From Desulfosporosinus sp. (GTDB taxonomy: Bacteria; Campylobacterota; Campylobacteria; Campylobacterales; Arcobacteraceae), in NCBI GenBank assembly GCA_020719775.1, contig DYPS01000017.1, positions 1 through 37,644 on the forward strand: 37,644 nucleotides of DNA, given 5' to 3'. The stretch's first letter is position 1; each line of letters opens with the position of its first letter. This document shows positions 3,659 to 27,690 of the stretch, piece after piece. The notes below the pieces were generated by a model. The model worked only from the letters and a program-made list of their open reading frames with translations. It searched no databases and was not told where the DNA came from. The position numbers and the translations under genes were made by a program.

Positions 3659-6600
3659 TCATCTCTTTTATAAGATTTATTATTTTATGTATGTAGCTAT
3701 CTTTGGATTACGGTTTATTTAGTCGATTGGGATAAATGTTAATATGTATTCAGTTGCTGCTATTTTTTGCTATAAGTTTTGGTAAAACTTGAACCACCCC
3801 ACTAATAAAAATGTGAAATTTATTATACACATGGTCAGCATTACTGCAAAAACTGCAGTATCTCCTCCATTTATCAATGTGTAAACTCCATCTCTATATG
3901 CTAAAGTTAGCTTTCTCCAATGAGATTTGAGAAGGTATTGAATGTTTCGTTCAGTAATAAGTTTCTCATAAGATAGAATATCATCCGTTTAGGTTGAATT
4001 GACGGAGCCATCAGAGGCATAGGAAATTAGACTGTTATACTTTGATGTTACCATACTCATATATTGCGAAACTATGACATTGAGACCAAAACTTTCCCCA
4101 AAAACAGTCTGACATTGCGCCGTACTAATTCCAGACTGCGCACACAGATCATTATACTGAAGATTATTGAAACTATCCAAATAAATCGAATCAAAGACAG
4201 TCCCGATAAGATAAAATTGGACTGGCAAACCAGAGTAGATACTATTCAATGTGTTATACTCTTTTGATATACTTGCTAAACTTGAATTCACAGGTTTTTA
4301 TTTGAAAGGAATTGTTGGATCTAAGGCATATGAGTTCTAAATTTAATATAAAACATACCATCATATTTATAACTAAAGAAAATTGCTTCTATAGCTTAAA
4401 AACCTTTCTGGCAGTTGCAATAGAAAATTATAAAGTTGAGCTTCCTGAATTATAGAAGAAGAGAACAAATATGTGGAAGAATAAAAGAAGTAAGAGGAAA
4501 CCGAGTGTCGCAATCATGAAATTGTTTGTTGTCTTTTATTATCCCATCACTGTTCTTTTTTTTTGCTTTGGTCGCTTTTTTTATTATTCGTTTAGGCCTG
4601 CATCCGACCCTTATGAAGCCATAGAGACAGCTTCCATATCTTACTGATTTTACGATGATAGTCTTTGAATAAACCTTTCGCATTCCTTTTGGATCGAAGT
4701 ACAAGCTTTTCTAGGAATTTAAAAAAACACTTATAAAATTTATGCTTTTTTTTTAATAACTAATCGAAGGAACACATTTTTTATAATTAATGCTACAACG
4801 AAAATTCCAATTGCTAAGCTGAGAAATATAACATGAGCATTTCTCATGCCACTTATATTATTATCAAAAGCAGTTTTAGCAAGTAAAATTTAATTATGCA
4901 CTTTTTCTAAGATGTTGTTAACTGTGTTATAATTCACAAAAAATGCGTCAGAGTTAGATTGATCCAAAATGGTTGGATACAATAATAGACTATTCGCTTA
5001 CGAAGTAAGTTTGTTTAATGCGAATCCAAGCATCATTGTTTAGTTGGTTCCGTCACTATAATGCAGCAAAGTGCTTTATCCATGGGGATATTTGGTCAGA
5101 TATGTGCCATATAGGTTAATTTAAGCCGTCAAAAGATTGAGCTAATCAGTCGTCCTAAGATATTTTGAAAAATAAACGGCATACATTTTCATGTACAGAA
5201 TCTACGAGGATAGTTAGTTTATTTGCCTTATTTTTTCACAAGAACTCATCATATTTTCATATAAATTCATGGAGATGACGTACTGAATAATGTAGAGCAA
5301 GCTTGAGGAAAATAGGATCAAAAATGTCAAGATCTTCAAAATTGAGATATTTTTATTACTTGTTTCTTTTTAAAGTATACTGCTTAGTTAGATTGGCCTT
5401 ATGTTTCCTTGCCCTTACATATCTTAAATTTATTTTTATACCTCTCCAATATCAAATTCTGATTCTTCTGTGATGTTAAAAACTTCTCTGATGCCTTTCT
5501 TTTAAAGTCTTTTTGTTTTTATATCCTCGCCATATACTTTTTGCTTTCTTTGTTCAATGACATTCTACTATTTAATTGGATTTCTTGAAAAATATTTGCT
5601 CACTGAACTTAAACAGCTCTTCGCCATTTAGTCTGCGTTTTATACGACTCCACCTTTGAATTTTAGTTGCATTTACAGTGACTCTTACATTTAGCCGATA
5701 TCACTTTGACTTTATTAGGGAGATCTTTTATTAACTACTTGATAGACGAAGTTAAAATTACTTCCTGAATGCCTTGTTTATTTAATGTTGCTTAAAGCTA
5801 AATCTTTTTGATTATTTGATAAGATAGTTCTTTGGAACTTCAGTATTAAGCCAATGCTACCAGTTATTGTAATACTAATGTCATCTACTGATATATTAAA
5901 AAGAGTGATTTATGTGTGATATTGTCCTTGATCTATCTCATAGGTCCGAGTCACTTCAATTTCACAAGATTATTTCTAATCGACCATTCTTTGTTTAAGG
6001 TCCGAAAAATTTGGGATTATTTATGTTATTAGCATCTTCTTTTTTAGATTTACTTTACCATATAATTATGGATATATTCCTAGCATAGCAGAGCTGACTT
6101 CACTTATCTGATCATTTAAATCAAGAACCAAAAAGGCACTTTATTTGACCCATAAGTCTCTTTTAATACTGGCATATACTTCCGAAGATTGAGAAAGCAT
6201 ATTTTTTACCGGCTTAATCATGATAGAGAATGGAAACAGATAACCGTCCTTTGACTTACCCCACACAACTCTCTCTTTGTTCATCATTTTTGATTTATTT
6301 GTTTGCTGATAATTCTATAAAATTCTATCATGATAGTTTGCTATCAGTTTTGGCATAATGTCATTTACTTTTCTATTGACAAGTTATCCTTTATTATATC
6401 CAAATATTTTTTATGCTGCTAAGTTTACTTGGTACATCACTCCTGGATTTTTACCATCAAATTCTAAAAAGATTATGCCATTTTATTAAACTCCAACGTT
6501 ACTGTTTCCTTCAGCATCGACTTAAACCTCTTATCTATTCTTCAATTATTGTTAAATTTTTTTTGCTTATTATAATATTTTTAAACCTTTTTCTTTATCA

Positions 6601-8232
6601 TTGAACATTTTTATTAAGTACCGGGCATACAGATGGTACGATTAAATATTTTTTAGTTTTTGAATTATTTTCCATTAGTTATCGACCCCAATTTTCAAAG
6701 GGAATAGCACATTGGCTAGATCATATAATTTTTTAAGGTTACACTTTGGATCTGCTAAAAAGTACCAAAATTCTGCGAGCATGCTGACACTAACCTCAAT
6801 ATTATGTCTGAATTCTGATATTTCATTATCTTTATTAGCTTTACTACTATTTTAGTTATCAATAAAGAGTTATTCAATCTTTTTCTTAAGATAATACAAT
6901 GCAAATTTTTAGTTTGAATTCACTTAATGATTGTGCGAAAATTTATTATACAATAAGAGCCCTTTTTGCCTGTTTTGAAAAACATCTAACTCATAATTAA
7001 CAATTTAAATAGATAAAGGGAGGAGGTTTGGATGACGATCTTTTTTTCTTTCCGCATGGTAAAGACCGAAGCTATAGCATTATTGAATTGTTTTTAATAG
7101 TCTTTTTTGCTCTATATGATCATCATTTCTAACAACTTTTGTATCTTTAAGTTATGCTAAAGGACATTCTGGATGATCACAAAACTAATGATGTTTTTTA
7201 ATTAAGTTCCAAAGTGTTTTAAAAATTGGATCGTTGACTTTTTGTTATGACTTTTTGACAATATTTAGGATATGTTTTAGTTGACTTAGCATTAAATACA
7301 GATGCTCCATTTTTTTAATCTCATGCTTTTTTTATAAGAATAAACTTTTCCAAGCTTACTTTCTATCTACTCCAAAAGAGCTCACAAGAGCATATATCAG
7401 CATACAGGGAAAGCTATAGCCCCATAAATACCAAAATAGATTATTTGTATTTCCAACATAAGAAGCAGTCATAGTTGAAAAAACATTCAAATATGGTAGA
7501 ACATATGCAATTACTGACGTCCAGGCTATAAAAGTGTAAACCAAAATCCATAAATTATTGATCAAAGGATTACAGTAGTTATTATTGCTTGAATAAAACA
7601 GGTACAAGGTAATCGTAAAAATGACTGCAAACTTCCTTTGACTATCTAATGATTAAAAAATAGAACTATTCGTAATGAAGCCGATGATTACCTTGTATGC
7701 AAAGTCAAAAATTGCTATATTTCCACTTGTCATCGAAAGGTAATTGTAATTATCATAAAATGGATAATAGTAGTAGCTTCTGAGCAAGATTATAAAGCTG
7801 TATACAACTATCAGAAGAATGCTACCAGCTTGATACTTACTTTATCCTTGGCACCAAGCAGATCCATTAAAGCATTGCATAGTGCATTCTACATATATTA
7901 GTCCTATGGCTTCCATAAATAGCAGACTATATCCGTATAAATTGCTGAAACTTTTGAAGATAAAACTAGTAGCTATTAGAACTATGGCCAAACTTAACAG
8001 AACAATTTATATTAAAAAGACTGAAAAGTATGGAATTTGAAGCGATTATAGATAATTCGGATTTATCTGAATGTTAATATATTTGTACAAGTTAGTAAAG
8101 TTTTGCGGAGTATAATCCGAGTGAGATAAATATTATCGGAATGAAGAGCACAGGCCATGAGTTGAAATTCTTGACTTCGTTAAATTGCAGCTAGAAGATG
8201 TAAGGGTCTTTGTTTTTATCCGTTTTCTACAT
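3659..8232 (-). CDS. Multipass membrane protein with PAS domain (ciliate TmcB-like)
   Basis: Three exons (8232-8089, 8066-4359, 4336-3659) with two 22-nt introns give 1509 residues. The N-terminal third (about 30-310) is a run of hydrophobic segments, for example WILVYTFIAWTSVIAYVLPY. Near residue 340 comes a conserved Cys/His motif HHQFCDHPECPL. A PAS-like domain lies near 580-690, with NDIMPKLIANYHDRILQ and GKSKDGYLFPFSIMI. The C-terminal part has four further membrane segments (near 960, 1127, 1240 and 1446). Between them is the motif ILQVFFQIPRK, and it ends with LTFIPIDQINRNPKI. Ciliates carry many such large PAS/transmembrane genes of unknown role, probably sensory. The ligand and output are unknown, and no cyclase or kinase domain was seen. 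Convergent with the cyclin and divergent from the N/Q/K-rich gene. Confidence 0.85.
4337..4358 (-). other. Intron, 22 nt (PAS membrane protein, second)
   Basis: Minus strand, begins GTATG and ends TTTAG, phase 0. Joins the exon ending in a membrane segment plus VINMM to the exon starting NSYALDPTI. Without removal the frame hits TGA soon after. Confidence 0.9.
8067..8088 (-). other. Intron, 22 nt (PAS membrane protein, first)
   Basis: On the minus strand it begins GTACAA and ends ATTCAG. Removal joins the first 48 codons to the long second exon in phase 0 and gives LYQL-INPNYL running into a membrane segment. Without removal the frame is wrong. Confidence 0.9.
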
Positions 8233-8571
8233 CTAAATTTAAATATTCGTTGATTATTATAGATTATCGATTATGAATTATAGATAAATTAGTATAAGTG
8301 CAGTAAAAGCAAATTAACGTAAACTATAATGCTAATAAACTTACTTATGAAGTCTTCATAGATATATCTTTGATTTTTTTATATGATTCTAAAATTGTAA
8401 TAATAGTTTGCGACAGATTTGGAGTATTTGACAGCCAATAATTTTTGTTAACTTTTATTTTAATTGATTTGACAAGAATTTATTAATTTTTATTGATTAA
8501 TTTTTGTATAAATAAAAAGAACTAAAATCTAAACTAAAATTAAATACATTTCTACGCTTTATATAAAAAAT
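8233..8571. promoter_or_regulatory. Divergent intergenic region
   Basis: About 340 bases of AT-rich DNA between two divergently transcribed starts (8232 minus, 8572 plus). It must serve as a bidirectional promoter region. No recognisable element, repeat or RNA gene was seen. Confidence 0.5.
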
Positions 8572-10379: not shown

Positions 10380-10898
10380 GTTGGCCATTAGGCTATAGAA
10401 TTCCTAAATGTTGACCTTTCCATCTCCACTTTTATTGGCGACTTGGATCATTGATTAAATGTCCTTATCTTAAATCCATATGCCGTATTCATTAGCAATA
10501 TGTCTAAGACGTTAAGCAGTGATATGGCCGTTTCTTTAATGGTCATATAAGTTGAATAATCTGTCCATGTCCAGCTTTGAATCTTGTTATGTAACTTTTG
10601 AAGTCATCATAAACAAAAATTGTTCAAAGTCTATTTTCTAATCACCTTCATAAGGCCCAAATTTATTCAATACGCATTGTAAGGTGTAGTGGAGATGATC
10701 CTCTTTTGCTCTTTCACCTAAATCTAAAAGCTCATCTCTTATTTCTAAAGCATCAATGAGGCCAGTTTATTTATCTGCAAACAAATCAAAGAATTATCTC
10801 ACCTCTTGAACTTCAGCAAGAGATACACCAGGTTTGGCATAATCCATGGGGTCGAAGTTGTTCGTTGAGGTCTTAGAGGCTTTTGACTTTGTGCTCAT
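10368..10898 (-). CDS. Centrin/calmodulin-like EF-hand protein
   Basis: An intronless 176-residue protein with four EF-hand-like units. The opening VSLAEVQEVRQFFDLF resembles the centrin start of EF1. Loop 1 (ADKQTGLIDALE) lacks the first Asp. Loop 2 (around GDQKIDFEQF) is degenerate. Loop 3 (DHQRNGHITAQR) has Arg where Glu12 should be. Loop 4 (NKSGDGKVNIQE) is near-canonical. So probably only the last loop binds calcium well. Centrin-like proteins sit in basal bodies, contractile fibres and the cortex of ciliates. A short S/T/K-rich N-terminal extension precedes the fold. Its neighbour on the same strand is the AT-hook gene, 213 bases upstream. Confidence 0.88.
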
Positions 10899-14640: not shown

Positions 14641-14883
14641 GCTGAAACCAAAATATAAAAATGATTAAACAGACTTATTTCAAAATAAAATAAAACAATT
14701 ACGCACTTTCTTAGATCAAATCCCTAATAATATCCATATTCATAGCTAAAAATCATTGTTTCTTAGAGTTATATATAATTGAAAAGAAATGAATAATGAG
14801 ATAATGAAAAAACTTATTATATAACAAACAATCAAATGTCATATAAATTGTATAATTATAATATTTTAAAGGATCAAATTAAG

Positions 14884-17800
14884 ATGAAGGCAATCGAACA
14901 GATATCAATTTTAGTTGTCTTTGCGTTCATGATATTAGAAACTTTTGCGATAAATTATCCGGGAGATCCAGGCTGTGATCCGCGTTGTGCAGATAGCAAT
15001 TGTGATGTACTTTCTTCGTATTAGTCCTGTGTAACTGGGTGCAAGATATATCCGGTTGAAACTAATAATTATTTATGGGTTGGCACGACGACATGTGCTT
15101 CGTATTGTCCTGGGGGATAATACACAAACTCTTCTGATTTAAAGTGCTACACATGTGATGGAAATTGTTCAACATGTAATGGCCCTGCAAACACTGAATG
15201 CTTAAGTTGTGCAACTACTTCTTATCAAAAAAATACAACAAGTTGCTATAATATGCCACCACACTCATATGGATACAATCCATGTCCAGATCCTTACTAC
15301 GCTCTGCAAATAACAATGAAATGTGTAGCATGTCCAATAGGGTGCGCATCTTGCAACATTTATCTATCCCAGTTCATGCCAGGAACGTACAATACAGACT
15401 ATAACATGGGTAATACAAACTGCACACAGGATGTCTTATGTGGATACACTTTGAAATGCTACTCTTGCACAAGTGGATATTTTCTATAATCTGGGATGTG
15501 TTATACAAATACATGTAGAAAATATCAGTTGTATACGAATACTGCAGGTGGTTTTAATCCTGCAAATTGCAATTGCATGGCCAACTATTATATGACCGGA
15601 GTAACATGTAGTCGATGCGATTTTACTTGTAAAACTTGTGGACCTTCAAACACTACTTGTTTAACATGTCCTGATGGCTCTGTTTAGGCTGGAGGAGTCT
15701 GCAATTATAATTCAACGGTTTAGATAATCATAACTTGGGATACTGATATTAGCATCGGTTCTGGTTGGACTTCAAACTATGTTCAAACATCAACATGTGG
15801 AAGCTATCAATGGATATTCGGAAGCTATTGGGGCTATAACATTGCATCATTAACAAACTTATTCCCCGCAGCAGTATTAACGATCACTTCATCAGCATTT
15901 AATTATCAACAACATTATGCAATAAAATTTAGAGCAAGGTTCTTATTCATAGATCAATGGACGAATCAAATAAGTTTAATTTTTAGATAAGGAGGACTAG
16001 ATCGATACGCTTATAATTTCGGATTGGGTACACTTGTCGGCGAATATCTTTGTGGATTGAACTATGACGACTATATAAACATCATTTAGTTTAACTTTCC
16101 TCATACTTCTGCCAATCTTAACTTGATTATTCAGGCCAGTCAGAGCGGATATGCCTGGGGAATCAGATAGATTCAGATTATGCAGCTTGTTTGTGATACT
16201 AGTTGTAATACATGTGATGGGCCTTCTAGCAGTGACTGCCTAGGATGCTTTGCAGCTAATAATTAAGTTTTGGTGAATGGAATATGTGAATGCGATATTT
16301 ACAATGGTTATTATAGAAATCTTGATGGCACATGTCATCAAACGTGTGATGCTACCCACTTTCTAGATAACACTACTTTTTCTTGTGTAAATGCATGTGT
16401 TTATCCACTTCAATTTCTATTATTGAATCCTGTTTCTGGACTTCTTTAATGCACGTAGGACTGTCCAGTAAATTATTTTAAAAGATGGTCTAATCTGACA
16501 TGTACAAATCAATGCTTTGATAGCGCACAAGCCGATATTACTCTAAATCAATTCAAGTATAACGGTTCTGATAGGTCTTGCTATAACATATGCCCAACAG
16601 GAATGTACGGAGATCCATAATCTAAAAGTTGTGTCAATTAATGCCCTTCAACTTCAAGTGTTAGTCCTTATCAAACTTACGGATATTTTTCTTTAGGCCA
16701 TTTTTGTTACACTGCTTGTAGCTCTACCACTTATGCGTTCCCAGGCACACGATAATGTTTATCCTCATGTCCTGCAGGTTATTATTCTAATACTAAAAAT
16801 GTAGGAAATGGAGTATAAAAACTTTGCTAACAAATCTGCTCAATTACTTTAGGGGGAAGTAAGCATTATGGCGATAACTCTACAATGACCTGTGTGAATG
16901 TCTGTCCTTTAAATACCTATGCTGATGCAGCAACTAACCTATGCTTAAAGATTTGCAATAGTACATCTTATCGACAAAATTTAACTATATCAATGGTAAT
17001 TACTGGGACATGCCAACTATATTGTGACATTGCTGCTAGTCCAGATAACTTGTTTGGTGATAATTTTACCCATAACTGTGTCAAGTCTTCTCTTTGCTTG
17101 AATGGAACTTATGGAGATAGAACTTCCACATACTGTTAATCGTTTTGTACAGTTTCAGGCTATTATGCCGATAATACAACAAAAACATGCTAAACTACAT
17201 GTACATCTGGATTTAAGCAAAATCAAACTCGAATGTGTGTAAAAACATGTCCAAATCAAAACAACGCTGTTCAATCTTAGTACGGAGATCCTGTTGGAAG
17301 ATATTGTATTCCAGCATGTCTAGGAAGTTACTATTCAGATAATCAAACCAATAGAGAATGTGTCTTGACATGTGCAGCAACACCAGTTTCAACTTTTGGA
17401 TTAAATAATCAATGCGTCTATAATTGTTCAGCAACAACCTGGGCAGATCCATTCAGCACTAATCGAATTTGCACAACAAGTTGTACCAACAATGGAGTTA
17501 CAAAAAGCTATGGCTATAATGATACCAGAATGTGTGTCCTACAATGTCCAGACACATATTTTGGTCAAATAATTGGAGGTATTCCAATTTGTGTATATGT
17601 CTGTCAAAACGGCTGGTATGGTAATCCCGATACAAATCTTTGTGTCCAGTATTGCCCCCAACCGTATTATGGTGATCCAACTGGAAACAGAACTTGCGTC
17701 CTTGACTGCTAAACTGATGGATATTTTTCTTTAAATGCTTCAATTGCATAGCCAGATGGAACTACTCTTCTAAACAGAACATGCACACAAACTTGTACTT

Positions 17801-20800
17801 TTGGCTGGGCAGATAACTTTACGCGAACATGCGCTATTGTTTCGTCTGGATGCAGTAAAAACCTATATGCTCACTAAACAAGTCATTTATGCGTCATTAA
17901 CACTGCATGCACTGGCTTTGCTGACTCAATCACAAGATATTGTGTTAGCTTGCCAACTCATTGTTATATGAACGCAGCTGTGATATATTTTGGTGACGAT
18001 AGCTCAAAAAATTGTGTGTTAATTTGCCCCATTGGCCAAGATTACTTCGGAGATAATACAACATCTGAATGTAAAAGTTCATGCTCAAACAGCTAATTGA
18101 AAGATTTCCAAAATAACAGAAGATGCGTAACCGCTAATAATTGCTCAAGATATCCAATCTTACTATTTGGAGATGTGGCCGCTCATACATGTGTAACAGC
18201 CCTGAATTGCACTCCAGGAACCTATGGAGATAACAATACATTTTTATGCGAAAGCGATTGCACGGGCCCAACTTTGCTCTATGCAGATCCTGTCAACAAC
18301 TAATGTGTTGACTTGTGCTAGCTTGGATATTATGCTTTGAATACATCTGTTAATATTGGTGTATGCAGTCAAAGGTGCCCAGTTCCTCAATATGCTGACA
18401 ATCTAACAGTTCAATGCACAACTCAATGCTCAAATGATACTTATGGAGTAAACTATACTGATCCAGTCACCAGTTAATACTATGGAGTCTGTTAATCTGA
18501 ATGTCCTTTTAATCAATATGCAAGAGATGCTGATAATCTATGTGTATACAATTGTGGACCAGATTTGTGGGGCGAGAAAGTAAGTAGAAAATGCCTAACA
18601 TCACCTTTTCAATGTCCTACAGGATACTACGCAGATAACACTACTCATATGTGTGTAATACCTACAAGCTGTTCAGTGAATTCAGGCACACCTTTTGTGG
18701 CAGATAATCAAACAAAATATTGTGTTAGCGGATGCTATAATAACATTACTAATTGGGCTGATCTTGATAAAAAACTTTGTGTTGTTATGTGTCCTCGTAA
18801 TAAGTTTGGAGATAATTCAAGTCTTCAATGTTTGGATGATTGCCAAGGAACAAACTAATATGCAGACTCTCAACTTCAAGTTTGTGTGAGCGTTTGTTCT
18901 GAATATCCTATTGCGACTTTTGGTTATAGCACAACAAACACAAATAGTCAGACAATTTATCTCTGTATATAAGCAAGATACTGCCCTCCAAATACATGGG
19001 CTCAAAGTGTTTATAACAGATTATGTGTTTCTGTATGTCCAGATCCACGGGCTAATTCGGCTTATCCACAAATGTACTCAGATAATACGACAAAATTATG
19101 CGTGCTTAAATGCCCAAATTATTATTACGGTAACATTTTAGATAATGCTAATTATGGAACATGTGTCGCTATATGCCCCACATATACAAACGGATCATTA
19201 AAATTCTCAGATAATTATACAAAGACCTGTGTTGGAGTCTGTCCTTCGAGTCAAGGAACTTTTGGAGATCAAACTAGCTTAAGATGTGTTTCAGTTTGCC
19301 CCTTAGGCTATTACGCTCAACTCACTTCCACCGTCTTTCCAAACCGATATTGCGTTCAAACCTGTGACACAGGAACATGGAGTGAAGATGTTCTAAGAAC
19401 ATGTGTATTAACACCAACAGACTGCCCAACAATAAACGGAACTCATTATTACGCATATTATGCCTTGACAAAATGTGTCAAAACATGCCCTTTATCGGAT
19501 AATTTATGGGGTTAAAACTATACTTATACATGCCAATTATCATGTACCACTGGTTTTAAATATAACATAACTAGAGTGTGCATAGATATATGTCCAGGAA
19601 GTTTAGATGATGATGGTTCTTTCTCAGATCAAGGAATGTGTTATGTGGATTGTATTACTCCCAATTATTATAGAGATCCTCAAAATGCAAGAAGCTGTAA
19701 ACCAACTTGTAGTTTTGCTCCTGTTAAATATTACGCTGACTCGACAACCAGGAAATGTGTTTTATATTGTCCTTCGTATCCTTTGTTTTATTATGCATAT
19801 GACACTGATAAAACTTGCTAATTAACATGCCCAGGCACTTCCATGAAAGATTCTTCAACTAGGAAGTGTGTATCAACATGTCCAAATAATACATTTTTTG
19901 ATCCAAATTCTGATGAATGTGTTTAGATATGTCCATCGGATTATAACTCTTCTGGAAGTTATGTATGGTTTGGAGATTCGACCCAAACTATTCCCACATG
20001 TGTTATAGCGACTGGTTGTCCATCAACTTACTATGCGGATCAGAATGTTCAGCTGTGTGTGCAGAGCTGTTCGCAAAGTCAATGGAAACATAGCAAATAT
20101 TGCGTAAAATATTGCCCTGATGGGTATTATGGAAACTTGGCTACAGGTTTTTGTGTATTGCCAAGCGGCTGCCCATCTAACAAATATGCTAGCAACGTCA
20201 CCCTAACCTGTGTATCAATCTGTGTTGGCTCTTATGCAGATCTTAACAATCAAGTTTGTGTTGATGTATGTCCAACCAATTATTATGCTGATCTTGCCAC
20301 AAGACAATGCTCACTAAGCTGTACAAATAATGCAACAATATCCCTTCATAAAAACTTAGCCAATCAAACATGCATATCTTCATGTGCAGTAAGTCAATAT
20401 CTTAACACTATAAATAATAATTGTTAAGGATCCTGTGCTGATCCTTACTATGCTGATAACACAACTCAAGTGTGTGTGAGTGTATGTCCAAGTATTCCTC
20501 CACTCTATGGTCAAAATGATACAAATTTATGTGTTGCATAATGTTCAAATATAACGAATTAATTCAAGTTTTAAGAAGGAAGAGTATGTGTGACAAGCTG
20601 CCCTACAGGTTATTACAGAAATAATATTACCAGATTTTGTGTTAAGCAATGCTATAATAACACATATGCAGATGACACTTCCCTTTATTGTGTGTTGAAT
20701 TGTACTCCAAAATACACTTTATTAGATCCAAATATCTGTTCAGCAACCTGTCCAAGTCCTTACTACAGGGATCCAACCACCTTTAAATGTGTTACATAAT

Positions 20801-23800
20801 GCCCTATTTATCCAGAACAATATTTTAAAGTTGTAACGGCTACTGATAGATATTGTAGTTTGACTTGCCCAACTAGTAACTTTAGAGATGATTTATCTTT
20901 ATCGTGTGTTACAACTTGTCCCCCAAGCCCACCAACTTATGCAGATACTACCTCTGGAAATTGTACTGCCATATGTTCTAGTGGCTATTATATAGACGTA
21001 ACTACAAGAACTTGTAAAAACAAGTGCACAGGCTTGATGGTGGCTGATCCAGTTTCTGGAAAATGTGTCAATCAATGCACAAATGGAACTAATTATTATG
21101 CTGATTATCTACTTTCTATCCCAGCATGCGTGAAATATTGTTCAGCAACCACATTTGCTAACCCTTATACTTTGAAATGCTAATCGACATGTGGAACAAA
21201 TCCAATGACATATGGATTTGATGGAGTCGACCCACTTACAAGTCAAAACGTTAGAATATGTCTTGCAAGTTGCCCTTACCCTTATATCGCTGATAATTCC
21301 ACCCATAAATGCTAACAGCAATGTAATAATGCTCTATATCCATATCTGAACAAGGCAACTAAATCTTGTGTAAAAAAATGCACTTCTAAAGTTTATATTT
21401 TTTCATATTTGCCTAGTGGAAGCACAATTGATGGAGAATGTGTTAAATTCTGCCCAAATGGAACATTTGCCCTTCTTACAAACTATTCTTGTGTTAGTAA
21501 ATGTCCAGATGGATTGTATGGAGAAGTTGATAATAATACTTGCTATGAGAATTGCACTCTTGCTAATGGTAAATTTGCAGATCCATAAGTCAATTTATGT
21601 GTTAATACCTGTACGTATAACTCATCATTTGACTCTTTTGCTGATCTCTATAGCCGAACTTGTGTTACTTCATGTCCAATTGATAAATATACAATAGCTG
21701 ACACTCATTCTCGGCAATGTGAGGCTCGATGCACTTTGACAACTTAATATGCAGATCCAACTACAGGATATTGTTCAACTGCTTGTTCAACAACTCCAGT
21801 GCTATTATTTGCTGATCCTTAAACATTGACTTGCGTTTAGAATTGTTCTTTGTATAGCTAAAGATACATGAATTTAGTAGATCAAAATTGTGTCTTAAAT
21901 TGTTCATAAGTAGGAACCTTTATGTATGCTAATGATTAGACGAGAACTTGTGTAACTGCCTCTAATTGCCCTGGAGGGTTCTTTGGATTAAATTCAACAA
22001 ACATTTGTGTTGATGTTTGTCCGACAGCCAGTAACTTGTTTGGGGATCCAATCTCAAAAACTTGTATTCCAACATGTCAAGCTACTTATTTTGCTGATTT
22101 TACAACTCGCTAATGTGTGCAAACTTGCCCGTCAATACCAGCCTTATTTTCCGAAAATACTACACAAACATGTGTACCTTAATGTCCAAACAATAGTTAT
22201 GCCGATAATCACACGAGAAGATGTATAGAAATCTGCTCAATAGTTCCATACTAAACCTTTGCCGATAATTCTACAAATTTATGTGTTACAAATTGTCCAT
22301 TTTAACCTGATTATTTTGCTTCAAATAAAACATATTAATGTGTATTTACGTGCCCATCGACACCAAAAATGTATGCTGACTACTCTACAAGAACTTGTGT
22401 CCTTTATTGCCCTAATAATACTAATATTAGCACTTTTACAGATTAGCCATCAAGAATATGTGTCTAAGTATGCCCAGGTAGTACTTTCATGTAAAATTCT
22501 ACACATAAATGCGTCAGTGTATGTTTGACGGGATTCGCAGATCCGTTAAGTAGGTACTGTGTTGCAGTCTGCCCTCCTAAATATTATGGATATAATGGCA
22601 CCAGTGGTACTAATAAGACATGTGTCACAACATGCCCAACAGTTACACCTGCTCTCTATGCTGAAGATGGAAATAACTTATGCATGACTTCTTGCTCACT
22701 TATTTATAATACTTATAAAGATTTATCTACAAAAAGATGTGTGAAGATATGCCCTGTAAGCCAAGATTTTTATGCTTAAAATACAACAAGAACTTGCTAT
22801 GGACTGGGGTTATGTCCCTTATCTGCATCTACGTATTCAGATTATTCCACAAGATATTGTGTGTCAAGATGTCCCTAAGTTCCGGCTCTTTTCGCAATAA
22901 CAACTTTAGGAATTTGCAGTTAAAATTGTCTTGCTGATACATGGGCTGACAATTTCTCAAGGTCATGCATTGGACTGTGTCCCTCAACTCCAAAAGATAC
23001 TTATGGAGATAATTCAACTTGGACTTGTGTGACTGTTTGTCCGACAAAACCTATGACATATGCTAACGATTTTACGAGAACTTGTGTTCCTACATGTCCT
23101 AGTAGTCCAAATTATTATGCTGATAATACTACGCAAAGCTGTGTTGCAAATTGCGCTAATGGAACCTTTGCAGATAGTACTACAAGAAAGTGTGTAAATA
23201 CATGCCCGATCAATTGGTATGCTCAAAACTCAACTGGAAAATGTGTTGACACATGCGATGTTCATTAATTTGCTGATAGTTTACTTCGTGTTTGTGTTTA
23301 AAAATGTTCAGTTGATCCTATATTCTACGGCAATCCTGATACCCACATATGTGTTAGTCAATGCCCCTTTGTTAACAATAGTTTTGGAAACCCTATCAGT
23401 CAATAATGCGTAAATTATCAACTTGATCATACATCTGGATGTCCTGGGCCTTTGTTTGCTGATAATTAAACAAGACTTTGCGTTCAAGTTTGCCCGATGG
23501 CAAATGACACATATGGTGATAATTCGACTTGGAAATGTGTAAATCAATGTCCTGCAGGAACTTAAAACACTTTTTCAGATAATTCTACAATGAGATGCGT
23601 AAAAACCTGCCCTTCTTATCCATAATATTATGCTTAAAAGTATAGCAGAAGGTGTGTATCATTATGTTTAGTCGCAAATAGTACTTATTCAGGAAGTTTT
23701 GCGGATAATTCAACAAGATTATGTGTAGAGAAATGCCCGACAAATCCAGATTATTTTTCGGATAATTCTACGAGACGATGTGTTTATCTATGTCCAAGTC

Positions 23801-26800
23801 AACCATTAACTTTTGCAGATAACTAAACGAGAAGATGTGTCAGTGTTTGCCCATCAACTCCTGATATATATGGTGATTTAAGCACTTTGAGATGTGTTCC
23901 TGATTGTCCAATAAATGAAACAACTTATGCTGACTATTCTACGAGATTATGTGTAAAGGTTTGTCCAAGTTCATCTCCTTCATTATTCGCAGATACTGAT
24001 GCAAGAAGATGTGTAGGTACATGTCCAAATGGAACTTACTCAGATAATTCTACTCGTTTATGCGTTTAAGTTTGCCCATAATATCCAGATACTTATGGAG
24101 ATTACTCTACACATCGCTGTGTTTCGATATGTCCAATTTCTCCAGATTTGTATGCAGACCCTCTTTCCCAATAATGCGTTTTAAGATGTCCCGATGGATA
24201 CTATGCTGAAAATGACACAAGAAGATGTCTACCTTAATGTCCTTATGGCCAGTTAAACTATGCTGATAACTTAACAAATCGATGTGTCAAAAAATGTCCT
24301 GCAAGTTAAAACACATATGGTGACAATTCAACCGCAAATTGCGTAAAACAATGTCCATAAGTACCATTCACTTATGCCGATAATATGACGAGAATGTGTC
24401 TCATTATTTGTAATAATGTAACATTTGATAACAATTTAACTTATGGAGGATATGCTTAAAATGTTTCTAGAGTTTGTGTTCTAAAATGTCCAGATTAATC
24501 TTATGGAGATATCACAACAAGATATTGTGTTAGGTATTGTCCTTAAGGATCATATGCATATGACATAACGAATATGTGTGTATAAAATTGTCCAGATCCT
24601 TACTTCGCTGATCCAACAACTGAAAAATGTGTTTCAGTTTGTCCATAAGCACAACTACTATTCGGATAGCCATTTAATAGAACATGCACAGTATTTTGTC
24701 CTTAAACCACTTATGCTGATTATCAATCGCAAACTTGTGTTTCAGTTTGCCCTCATTTAAATGTTAGCTACAATGGCACATACGATACTTTTGCCTATTA
24801 GAATGATAATTCTTGTGTAGATTAATGCCCGATTCCTTTGTATGGATATCCTGTTACATATGTATGTGTTGCAGTATGTCCTAATCCTTACTATAAAAAT
24901 ATTACCGATCATCGATGCTATAAATGCCCTGATTCATGTGCTTCATGTAATTATCCTCAAGCTTGTCTAACTTGTGTACCTGGAAATTATCTATATTCCG
25001 GGTCGTGTGTACAGTCATGCCCGACGTTCCCTGCTATAACTTATGCAAATCCAAGCGGATAATGTGGGACTAGTTTCCAATGCACACCAGGATACTTCGC
25101 ATTAAACATTACAAAAACTTGTGTCCAAACATGTCCTGCTGGTTTCTATAAAAACAACCTTCTTCAATCATGTGACGCATGTCAAAGAGGATGCTTAACC
25201 TGTACAAACTCAACATATTGCATTGTATGCAATACAACTTTAGCAATCTGGTATTAATTCAACTGCTACACATATTGCTCTCCATTAAGAAGATATTACA
25301 CCTCAACAGGTTGTGTAAACGTATGCCCTATCGGCACATTCTTAAACTTAACTAATTGCCAGAACTGTAGTGCTATATGTAAATCGTGTATAGTTCAATC
25401 ATAAAATTGCATAACATGTGCAGATGGTTTATATCTATCCAATAACTTATGTGTACAGACTTGTCCAACAAATTATAAGGCAATAAACTAAAATAATTCA
25501 CTAGTATGTAGAAGCTGTTCAGCAGTCGGTGTGAATTGCACTGTTCAACCATTGACCTATTAGTTGACTCAATATGTAGATAATTTCAAATACACTTTTA
25601 TGCTCAAATTTAGTGAACCAGTCGATATTACTGGTAATCTTGCGGATATTATATCTATCCAACAAGTTACGAATAGTAGACTTTTGGCAACTACATATAG
25701 CAATTTGGATTATACAATTATCGATTATGGAGGAGGTGTTTATGCATTTATTCTTAATAATCTAAATGCGCAAGGAGGAAGCAGCCCTCAATATCAGTTT
25801 CAAATCCTTGATCCCTCTGCAATCGTATCTCCTTCTGGTCAATTACCATCTAATACTAGATCAACCGTGATCATAGATGCAACTACTCTCTACTCTCTAA
25901 CAGATTATAATAAATCTTTTATGAGCTACTTTACATTTATTCTTATTATGAGCATGATTTTGCTAGTATTTTCATTTTGGACATTAAATAGCGTATGGGC
26001 TCCAATGTTTGATTTTATTCAATTGATGTTTGCAGTGTTTTTGGTCAATGTTTAGCTACCACCAACTGCGATGTATGCATTAGGAGTGTTTAATTTGTCT
26101 GCATTTACTTTTTTACCAAACTTTTTCACAAATATGCTGCCAACATTCATCTATAATTAAAAAGTTATGAACTCTACTGTTTTTTCAATCTTAGGAGACT
26201 TCGCCTTTTTAAGAACTATGGGACAACTTTACTTCATCTTATTAATGATTGGTATTTTAGTTTTAGCTACATTCTTGATGAGTAAAAAATTCTTTTGGAA
26301 GCCTTTAAAAAAATGGAGTAAATCTTTCATAAGAGAAACTTTTTGGAAAAAACACCTTTACAATATTGTTCACATTTTATTCTTGCCAACTTTCCTTATG
26401 TTTTTCTTAAACTTTAGAGATTACTAAACAAAAAATAGCACTGCAATTGGTTTTTCAATTTTCAGTTCATATTTATTCGCAATTGGACTCATGGTTTTCA
26501 TAGTTTATGCACTGTACAAATTGAGGAGATTATCTATAGATAGTCCCATAACTTATTTAATGCTTCAAAAAGCATATAATTTCATAACCTTACAGAAAAT
26601 TGTAATTCTAGATAACTAAATCCATCATTTCATCTACTAAAAGAATGAAGTTGATATAAAAAATGCAAATTAGCCTCGCATAAACTAACTACTAATTATT
26701 CCATTTACAGTGTAGACAAGACTAGGTCCAATGTAGATCACAGCTCCTCTCATAAATATTCTGCATAAATTCATCATAGCTTTGTTCATTACAATCGGAT

Positions 26801-27690
26801 ACTAAAACCCAATTATTCAATGTCTTTAATTCATAATTATCAATATCTTATATGGAGTATATATCACTCTAAAGAAGCCCTACATAAAGATTGGTACAAA
26901 AGTTATGACTAATTAAATAATAATTCACAACATGATTGTCATATCGATTATCTTAATTATTCTCTTAGTATTTAAAGTCCAGGTGAACTCTTTGGATATG
27001 GCAAATAAGTTGATAATTGCGGATGTTCTATGTATATTCATTCTTGAGGGAATTACTGTTAACTTTGTGTACTTTGCTTATAGGATTTATGGTCATTACT
27101 TTTAACATTACTGGAAGAAATTTATTAATTCTGAGCTGTTCAAAGTTAATTACACTGTTTAACATTTAGAGCTAAGTAAAAAATACGATGAAAAATAAAA
27201 ACTTTTGCTTAAATAAACTCGTCCGAGAGACTAATTCTTAATGGCAATTAAAGTAGAACAAGGCTAAGCTTTAGCAGGAATGGTATTAAGAGACCCCAAC
27301 CATACAAAAGGAAAAGATAAGTTCAAGTAAGTTAATTTAAGGCCAAATAATACATAAATAGTTCAAAAAGACATAACATAAATGTTTAAAACTATGCACA
27401 ATGAGCACTAAAAATCAAATAAGTCAATTAAAAGCAGCGATCGTCTTACAAAGGCTGAAAGAAACAAAGTTAGAAACTAAATATTCTAAAAGTTTTAAGA
27501 GAGCAAAGAGCAAGTGTATTAGCCAATAAGAATGCCAATTGAATAAGCTTAAAATGACTAAGAGTAAAAATCTTAAAGCGAAGAGTCAGATGAGTATTAG
27601 TACTAATATATTGAAGAGGAGTATCCAGAAGGAACTCCAATGTAATAAATCTTGAAAGGAGTCAAAAAAGGAGATTTTATTCTTCCTTGA
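14884..27690 (+). CDS. Giant cysteine-rich repeat surface protein with polytopic membrane domain
   Basis: One intronless frame of 4268 codons. A signal peptide lies at residues 1-22; the upstream in-frame ATG at 14836 would place 16 polar residues before it, so 14884 is preferred. Order: Cys-rich region (about 23-275); a Cys-poor, aromatic/beta-like domain (about 280-435, ITWDTDISIGSGW to WGIRQIQIMQLVC); then to about residue 3555 well over a hundred furin/growth-factor-receptor-like units of roughly 20-28 residues, of the pattern YADNSTRxCVxxCP; a Cys-poor domain before the membrane (3561-3675, DNFKYTFMLKFSEPVDI); about eight or nine membrane segments (3683-4075); and a Q-rich, then acidic cytoplasmic tail ending GDFILP. 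Related Cys-rich membrane proteins form large families in ciliates, with mostly unknown roles: cell surface, adhesion or sensing. The neighbouring genes give no clue. Confidence 0.9.
16600..25050 (+). repeat. Coding tandem Cys-repeat array
   Basis: Within the giant gene, units about 60-84 bases long encode diverged copies of [YF]-[AG]-D-N-[ST]-T-x-x-C-V-x-x-C-P. The DNA is diverged between units, so selection rather than recent duplication seems to hold the pattern. Many units carry an N-x-S/T glycosylation sequon at the same place (DNST, DNTT). Boundaries are approximate. Confidence 0.85.

Follow-up and report, generated by a model that had tools for sequence, protein, structure and literature searches.

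Proteins with Cys repeats and at least two predicted transmembrane (TM) helices have been reported throughout Paramecium, and their function is not known (PMC9788069). In Tetrahymena, growth-factor-receptor (GFR) Cys-rich genes are one of the leading species-specific families (PMC6564038). The Tetrahymena proteins MTA, MTB and MRC1 each carry a GFR Cys-rich domain alongside five TM helices, and MRC2 has eight helices (PMC10901506). MTA, MTB and MRC1 act in a mating-type recognition complex (PMC10901506, PMC3608545).

The gene described here is found in a window of 37 644 bp, which is an entire contig (C42) of a 2.85 Mb assembly recorded as a prokaryote genome. It is a large new member of this known, poorly understood ciliate class, and includes about 140–148 furin-like repeats. 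Like the proteins of Paramecium group 7, as they are described (PMC9788069), its product combines periodic cysteines with at least two TM helices and has no GPI anchor; the Cys periodicity and the two or more TM helices that define that group are both found in it. Compared with known surface antigens, which average 2200 residues, the giant protein is about twice as long and has nine helices. In architecture it also resembles MTA, MTB and MRC1, with a large ectodomain, a furin-like/GFR Cys-rich segment and a multi-span C-terminus. The C-terminus of MRC2 is likewise multi-span, with eight helices rather than nine. However, the furin-like segment of MTA, MTB and MRC1 is short, at approximately 80 residues, whereas the giant protein has about 148 units. 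The first-pass annotation had considered a multi-span anchor unusual for the class, which is only partly right, as such anchors are already on record in Paramecium (PMC9788069) and Tetrahymena (PMC10901506) and are found in further genes of the same ciliate.

A ciliate chromosome in a bacterial genome assembly

The first 44 bp of the window (positions 1–44) are a C4A2 telomere, (AACCCC)7, and the start of the window is the end of a ciliate macronuclear chromosome. The same telomere caps many further contigs of the source assembly, and ten of those fetched, which are 5 to 19 kb long, are capped at both ends. Matches were obtained for window neighbours of the giant gene, namely a polo-like kinase, a cyclin, a TmcB-type PAS protein, a DnaJ protein, an FGGY carbohydrate kinase, an RNase PH protein and an XPD-type helicase, and eukaryotic genes flank the giant ORF on both sides. 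The TmcB-type protein (4191–8549, minus strand) has several hydrophobic segments in addition to its TPR_TmcB and PAS domains. A contig with two telomeres, L184, includes a tRNA gene with a CUA anticodon (10651–10722, minus strand), which ARAGORN, in its bacterial setting, labels as a pyrrolysine (Pyl) tRNA. Its position on a telomere-capped contig fits the decoding of TAG in a ciliate; it is probably a TAG-decoding tRNA of this organism.

The bacterial contigs of the assembly belong to Arcobacteraceae, and their SecY is 94–96% identical to that of several Arcobacter-type metagenome-assembled genomes. A search for a bacterial 16S gene found none. The stretches fetched from the assembly comprised 0.81 Mb of ciliate and 0.55 Mb of bacterial DNA. 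As the ciliate portion was read in part and the fetched stretches are a non-random sample, the first figure is a lower bound only, of at least approximately 0.8 Mb of ciliate DNA. The window is a ciliate contig misbinned in an Arcobacteraceae genome assembly. The record gives this prokaryote genome a completeness of 100% and a contamination of 0.32%, a score that does not betray the ciliate chromosomes, of at least 0.8 Mb, that the genome contains.

A single intact open reading frame

The giant gene is a single ORF of 4268 codons plus a TGA stop (14884–27690, plus strand), read with genetic code 6. Within it, 120 in-frame TAA or TAG codons are read as Gln, and TGA does not occur before the stop. 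The remaining five frames over the same stretch each contain 58 to 118 TGA codons and the longest open run among them is 381 codons, hence the length of the ORF is far beyond chance. The frame is also open upstream, from an ATG at 14836, but the start at 14884 is preferred as it places the signal peptide at the N-terminus. Base composition at each codon position is steady across the repeats. No candidate intron, defined as an in-frame AT-rich GT..AG segment of 18–36 nt divisible by three, was found in the ORF. As a kinase gene nearby has an evident 20 nt intron, identified by inspection, introns exist in the organism and their absence is a property of the giant gene, pending cDNA. The first-pass annotation had described one intronless frame of 4268 codons in which TGA is the sole stop, and at the level of sequence this description holds. 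The gene is intact and real.

The ectodomain

A signal peptide (residues 1–22, MKAIEQISILVVFAFMILETFA; 14884–14949, plus strand, as are all features of the protein below) was recognized by hydropathy and its cleavage site was estimated by eye. It is followed by an N-terminal Cys segment with the CxxC spacing of furin-like domains (residues 31–267; 14974–15684) and a low-Cys insert (residues 268–436; 15685–16191), for which a family search returned no match and which is possibly a globular head. The main array (residues 437–3344; 16192–24915), supported by Cys spacing, a repeat alignment and a structural model, is made of units with the consensus C-V-x-x-C-P-x(n)-[YF]-[AGS]-D-N-x-[ST]-x-x-x. 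A membrane-proximal furin-like segment that scores above Pfam cut-offs (residues 3345–3545; 24916–25518) and a low-Cys juxtamembrane domain (residues 3546–3676; 25519–25911) complete the ectodomain. The juxtamembrane domain is perhaps Ig-like, judging from a weak match to Big_5 that falls below the cut-off (E 0.07).

Residues 1–3640 include 372 Cys, with only two beyond, and the whole protein has about 148 CxxxC units or pairs at a median spacing of 19 residues. The large Cys-repeat ectodomain behind a signal peptide that had been proposed is thus borne out. No tandem DNA repeat was found in the array and its blocks are only 27–53% identical to a reference block, from which we conclude that the array is old and is not an assembly artefact made of identical copies. 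The ectodomain contains 109 N-glycosylation sequons, compared with 54 ± 7 in shuffled sequences. A sequon is present in 68 of 131 units, and 36 lie in the same register, five residues ahead of the next unit.

Fold and family of the repeats

An alignment was built from 22 non-overlapping four-unit blocks, all from the giant protein itself, and all ten Cys columns in it are invariant. The AF2 model of one four-unit block (23722–23964) has a pLDDT of 94.2 and a pTM of 0.81 and includes one beta hairpin per unit, and the block is thus predicted to form a ladder of disulfide-rich beta hairpins. When this model was used to query the PDB with Foldseek, 50 matches were listed, and all of them are furin-like Cys-rich domains, from ErbB/EGFR and insulin receptors, or furin repeats of R-spondins. 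The best E among the matches listed is 0.009 and none passes 0.001, hence the fold assignment rests on the consistency of the matches together with Pfam. When the fragment spanning residues 3273–3559 was taken alone, it matched Furin-like_2 at 43.7 bits (cut-off 28; best stretch 25309–25494) and Furin-like at 29.9 bits (cut-off 26.8; best stretch 24925–25197), while the full-length protein reached 19.6 bits against the furin-like families, which is below the cut-off. With a confident model and a membrane-proximal fragment that passes the Pfam cut-offs, membership of the furin-like repeats is well supported. The giant protein therefore shares a predicted unit fold and a membrane-proximal Pfam match with the furin-like Cys-rich domains of ErbB, the insulin receptor and R-spondin, but differs from these proteins in its much longer array and in having neither L domains nor a kinase.

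Membrane module and cytoplasmic tail

Nine membrane helices are predicted between 25915 and 27081 from hydropathy, loop charges and sequons (residues 3678–3701, 3704–3722, 3777–3801, 3823–3845, 3856–3879, 3951–3973, 3977–3998, 4009–4033 and 4041–4066). The inner loops contain 7, 8 and 2 Lys or Arg and the tail 35, compared with no more than one in each outer loop, and all three inter-helix sequons (3/3) fall on the outer side. Loop charges and sequons agree, and this supports nine spans with the N-terminus outside and the tail in the cytoplasm. The tail (27082–27687) is 202 residues long and includes 35 Lys or Arg and 26 Asp or Glu. A GPI signal, i.e. a short hydrophobic C-terminus, is absent, as the nine helices are followed by this charged tail. 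The first-pass annotation had eight to nine membrane segments and a charged cytoplasmic tail; nine are predicted here besides the signal peptide, rather than a single span, and the tail is as it was described. A KPY motif lies at the junction of TM7 and TM8 (26875–26883).

Searches of Pfam and of PDB sequences with the module returned no family and no relative. The membrane region did not match TRP, polycystin or other channel or receptor families, with an E limit of 10 for channel families. No credible relative of the module was found in viral contigs or GTDB genome contigs, and the 399 genomes searched from the bacterial order contained no credible copy. Weak matches (E 2e-6 to 3e-4) from another genus of that order, in five of its genomes, span one hydrophobic stretch (query residues 300–382) and were set aside. 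A model of the module from a two-sequence alignment had a pLDDT of 33.

Related genes in the same ciliate

Several further genes of this ciliate, like the giant gene, encode a Cys-rich ectodomain followed by a multi-span module. In L277 (13360–17442, minus strand, with a tandem copy at 18157–19999, minus strand), a protein combines furin-like repeats and DUF4215 with nine hydrophobic segments, whose order is similar to that in the giant protein. The tandem copy, of which the module is present, makes L277 (13360–19999, minus strand) a locus of tandem paralogues of a furin-like/DUF4215 polytopic protein, with membrane modules that are 59% identical. L105 has DUF4215 and a frameshifted module related to that of L277 (phmmer E 3e-5; hhalign probability 74). 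DUF4215, present in both L277 and L105, is absent from the giant protein. A gene in L282 (2132–5842, minus strand) includes furin-like repeats and multiple spans, and one in L098 (99–1673, plus strand) has eight or nine spans behind a signal peptide and a tiny Cys segment. The end of L093 and the start of L105 belong to overlapping contigs (C81 and C22), apparently sharing one Cys-rich gene. The frame change in L105 occurs at a poly-A run and is accompanied by an in-frame TGA; errors in assembly, introns or decay of the gene could account for this.

The first-pass annotation had asked if such a module turns up with different ectodomains, and the answer is mixed: the architecture does recur, in L277, L105, L282 and L098, but comparisons of the giant module with these four modules gave no significant sequence similarity. 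Its whole-module pairwise scores did not beat shuffled sequences, phmmer found no match to the modules of L277 or L105, and by hhalign it did not outscore 44 polytopic decoys. An apparent match to L098 in the TM2–TM3 loop (p = 0.007) was discarded, as the region was picked post hoc and the pair was unremarkable when hhalign was run with decoys. A [KR]PY motif is present in both copies in L277 and in L105, and L098 has QPF; among decoy polytopic ORFs, only 2 of 45 have the motif after a hydrophobic segment, though it was chosen post hoc. The shared helix order and the [KR]P[YF] motif that follows TM7, with the same reservation that the motif was chosen post hoc, suggest common descent.

Six further ciliate contigs (L077, L078, L073, L082, L170 and L286), some of them telomere-bearing, contain single Cys-rich ORFs of about 1000–1850 residues and resemble a surface-antigen repertoire that is partly on minichromosomes. 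An F5/8 type C domain is also present in L082. A 2648 aa Cys-rich protein in L098 has one C-terminal helix, and L077 has no evident anchor.

Proposed role

We consider it reasonably likely that this intact ciliate gene encodes a giant plasma-membrane GFR/furin-like Cys-rich polytopic protein that serves as a rod in contact, adhesion or recognition. The units would build a rigid rod bearing glycans, which, if straight and with 0.7–1 nm assumed per unit, would be on the order of 100 nm long and would carry the N-terminal low-Cys head past the cell coat. There, the protein may contact, adhere to or recognize prey, a surface or a partner cell. The membrane module and tail would anchor the protein firmly and might also link contact to partner proteins or the cytoplasm. 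Such a role has a precedent in MTA, MTB and MRC1, which pair a Cys-rich GFR domain with a multi-span anchor (PMC10901506, PMC3608545). The receptor or channel-like role that the first-pass annotation put forward for the membrane region would be a tentative reading: no receptor or channel family matched this region, and the model of it failed.

The serious rival, though an unlikely one, is that the protein is part of a passive coat or glycocalyx, in which the rod would only add to the thickness of the surface and the helices would be a strong anchor without signalling. Paramecium surface antigens do build coats (PMC9788069), and this ciliate has many other Cys-rich proteins, including some with one helix or no evident anchor. 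However, one helix or a GPI anchor would be enough for that purpose, and nine helices with a 202-residue charged tail would appear to exceed the need for anchoring.

A broader form of the contact reading, which we regard as doubtful, is that the nine-helix module represents a new protist superfamily of receptors or channels with exchangeable ectodomains, ranging from next to nothing (L098) to the roughly 148 furin-like units of the giant protein, and converts contact at the tip of a rod of approximately 100 nm into a signal. It is also rather improbable that the protein is a ligand- or force-gated ion channel, with the module a distant TRP-like pore and the rod a tether. The module does have multiple spans, short outer loops, a large cytosolic loop and a charged tail, and the KPY motif, which we take to resemble that of fungal TRP-like proteins, is close to the last helices. 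However, the absence of any TRP, polycystin or other channel family match at an E limit of 10, or of a sequence relative in the PDB, counts against a channel, as does the failure of the two-sequence model. Channel action is possible, and these searches gave no positive evidence for it.

That the protein belongs to a mating-type recognition complex, with a role equivalent to that of Tetrahymena MTA, MTB or MRC1, is distinctly unlikely. The general architecture is shared, with a Cys-rich furin-like domain beside a multi-span anchor and a large, specific ectodomain (PMC3608545, PMC10901506), but MTA, MTB and MRC1 are proteins of 161–212 kDa with five helices, whereas the giant protein is 474 kDa with nine. 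The head-to-head pair formed by the MTA and MTB genes is also absent here, the DnaJ gene upstream of the giant gene being on the same strand. It is because of helix number and gene arrangement that we do not file the giant gene with MTA and MTB. Finally, a chance ORF, chimera or misassembly might be suspected in a contig that sits in a bacterial genome assembly, but is disfavoured to the point of being barely credible by 120 in-frame reassigned codons, a steady codon signal, structured repeats, eukaryotic neighbours on both sides and a telomere at the contig end.

Few functions outside mating have been assigned to membrane-anchored GFR Cys-rich proteins. The giant gene shows the length that a repeat array in this class can attain, and provides a testable topology of nine helices.
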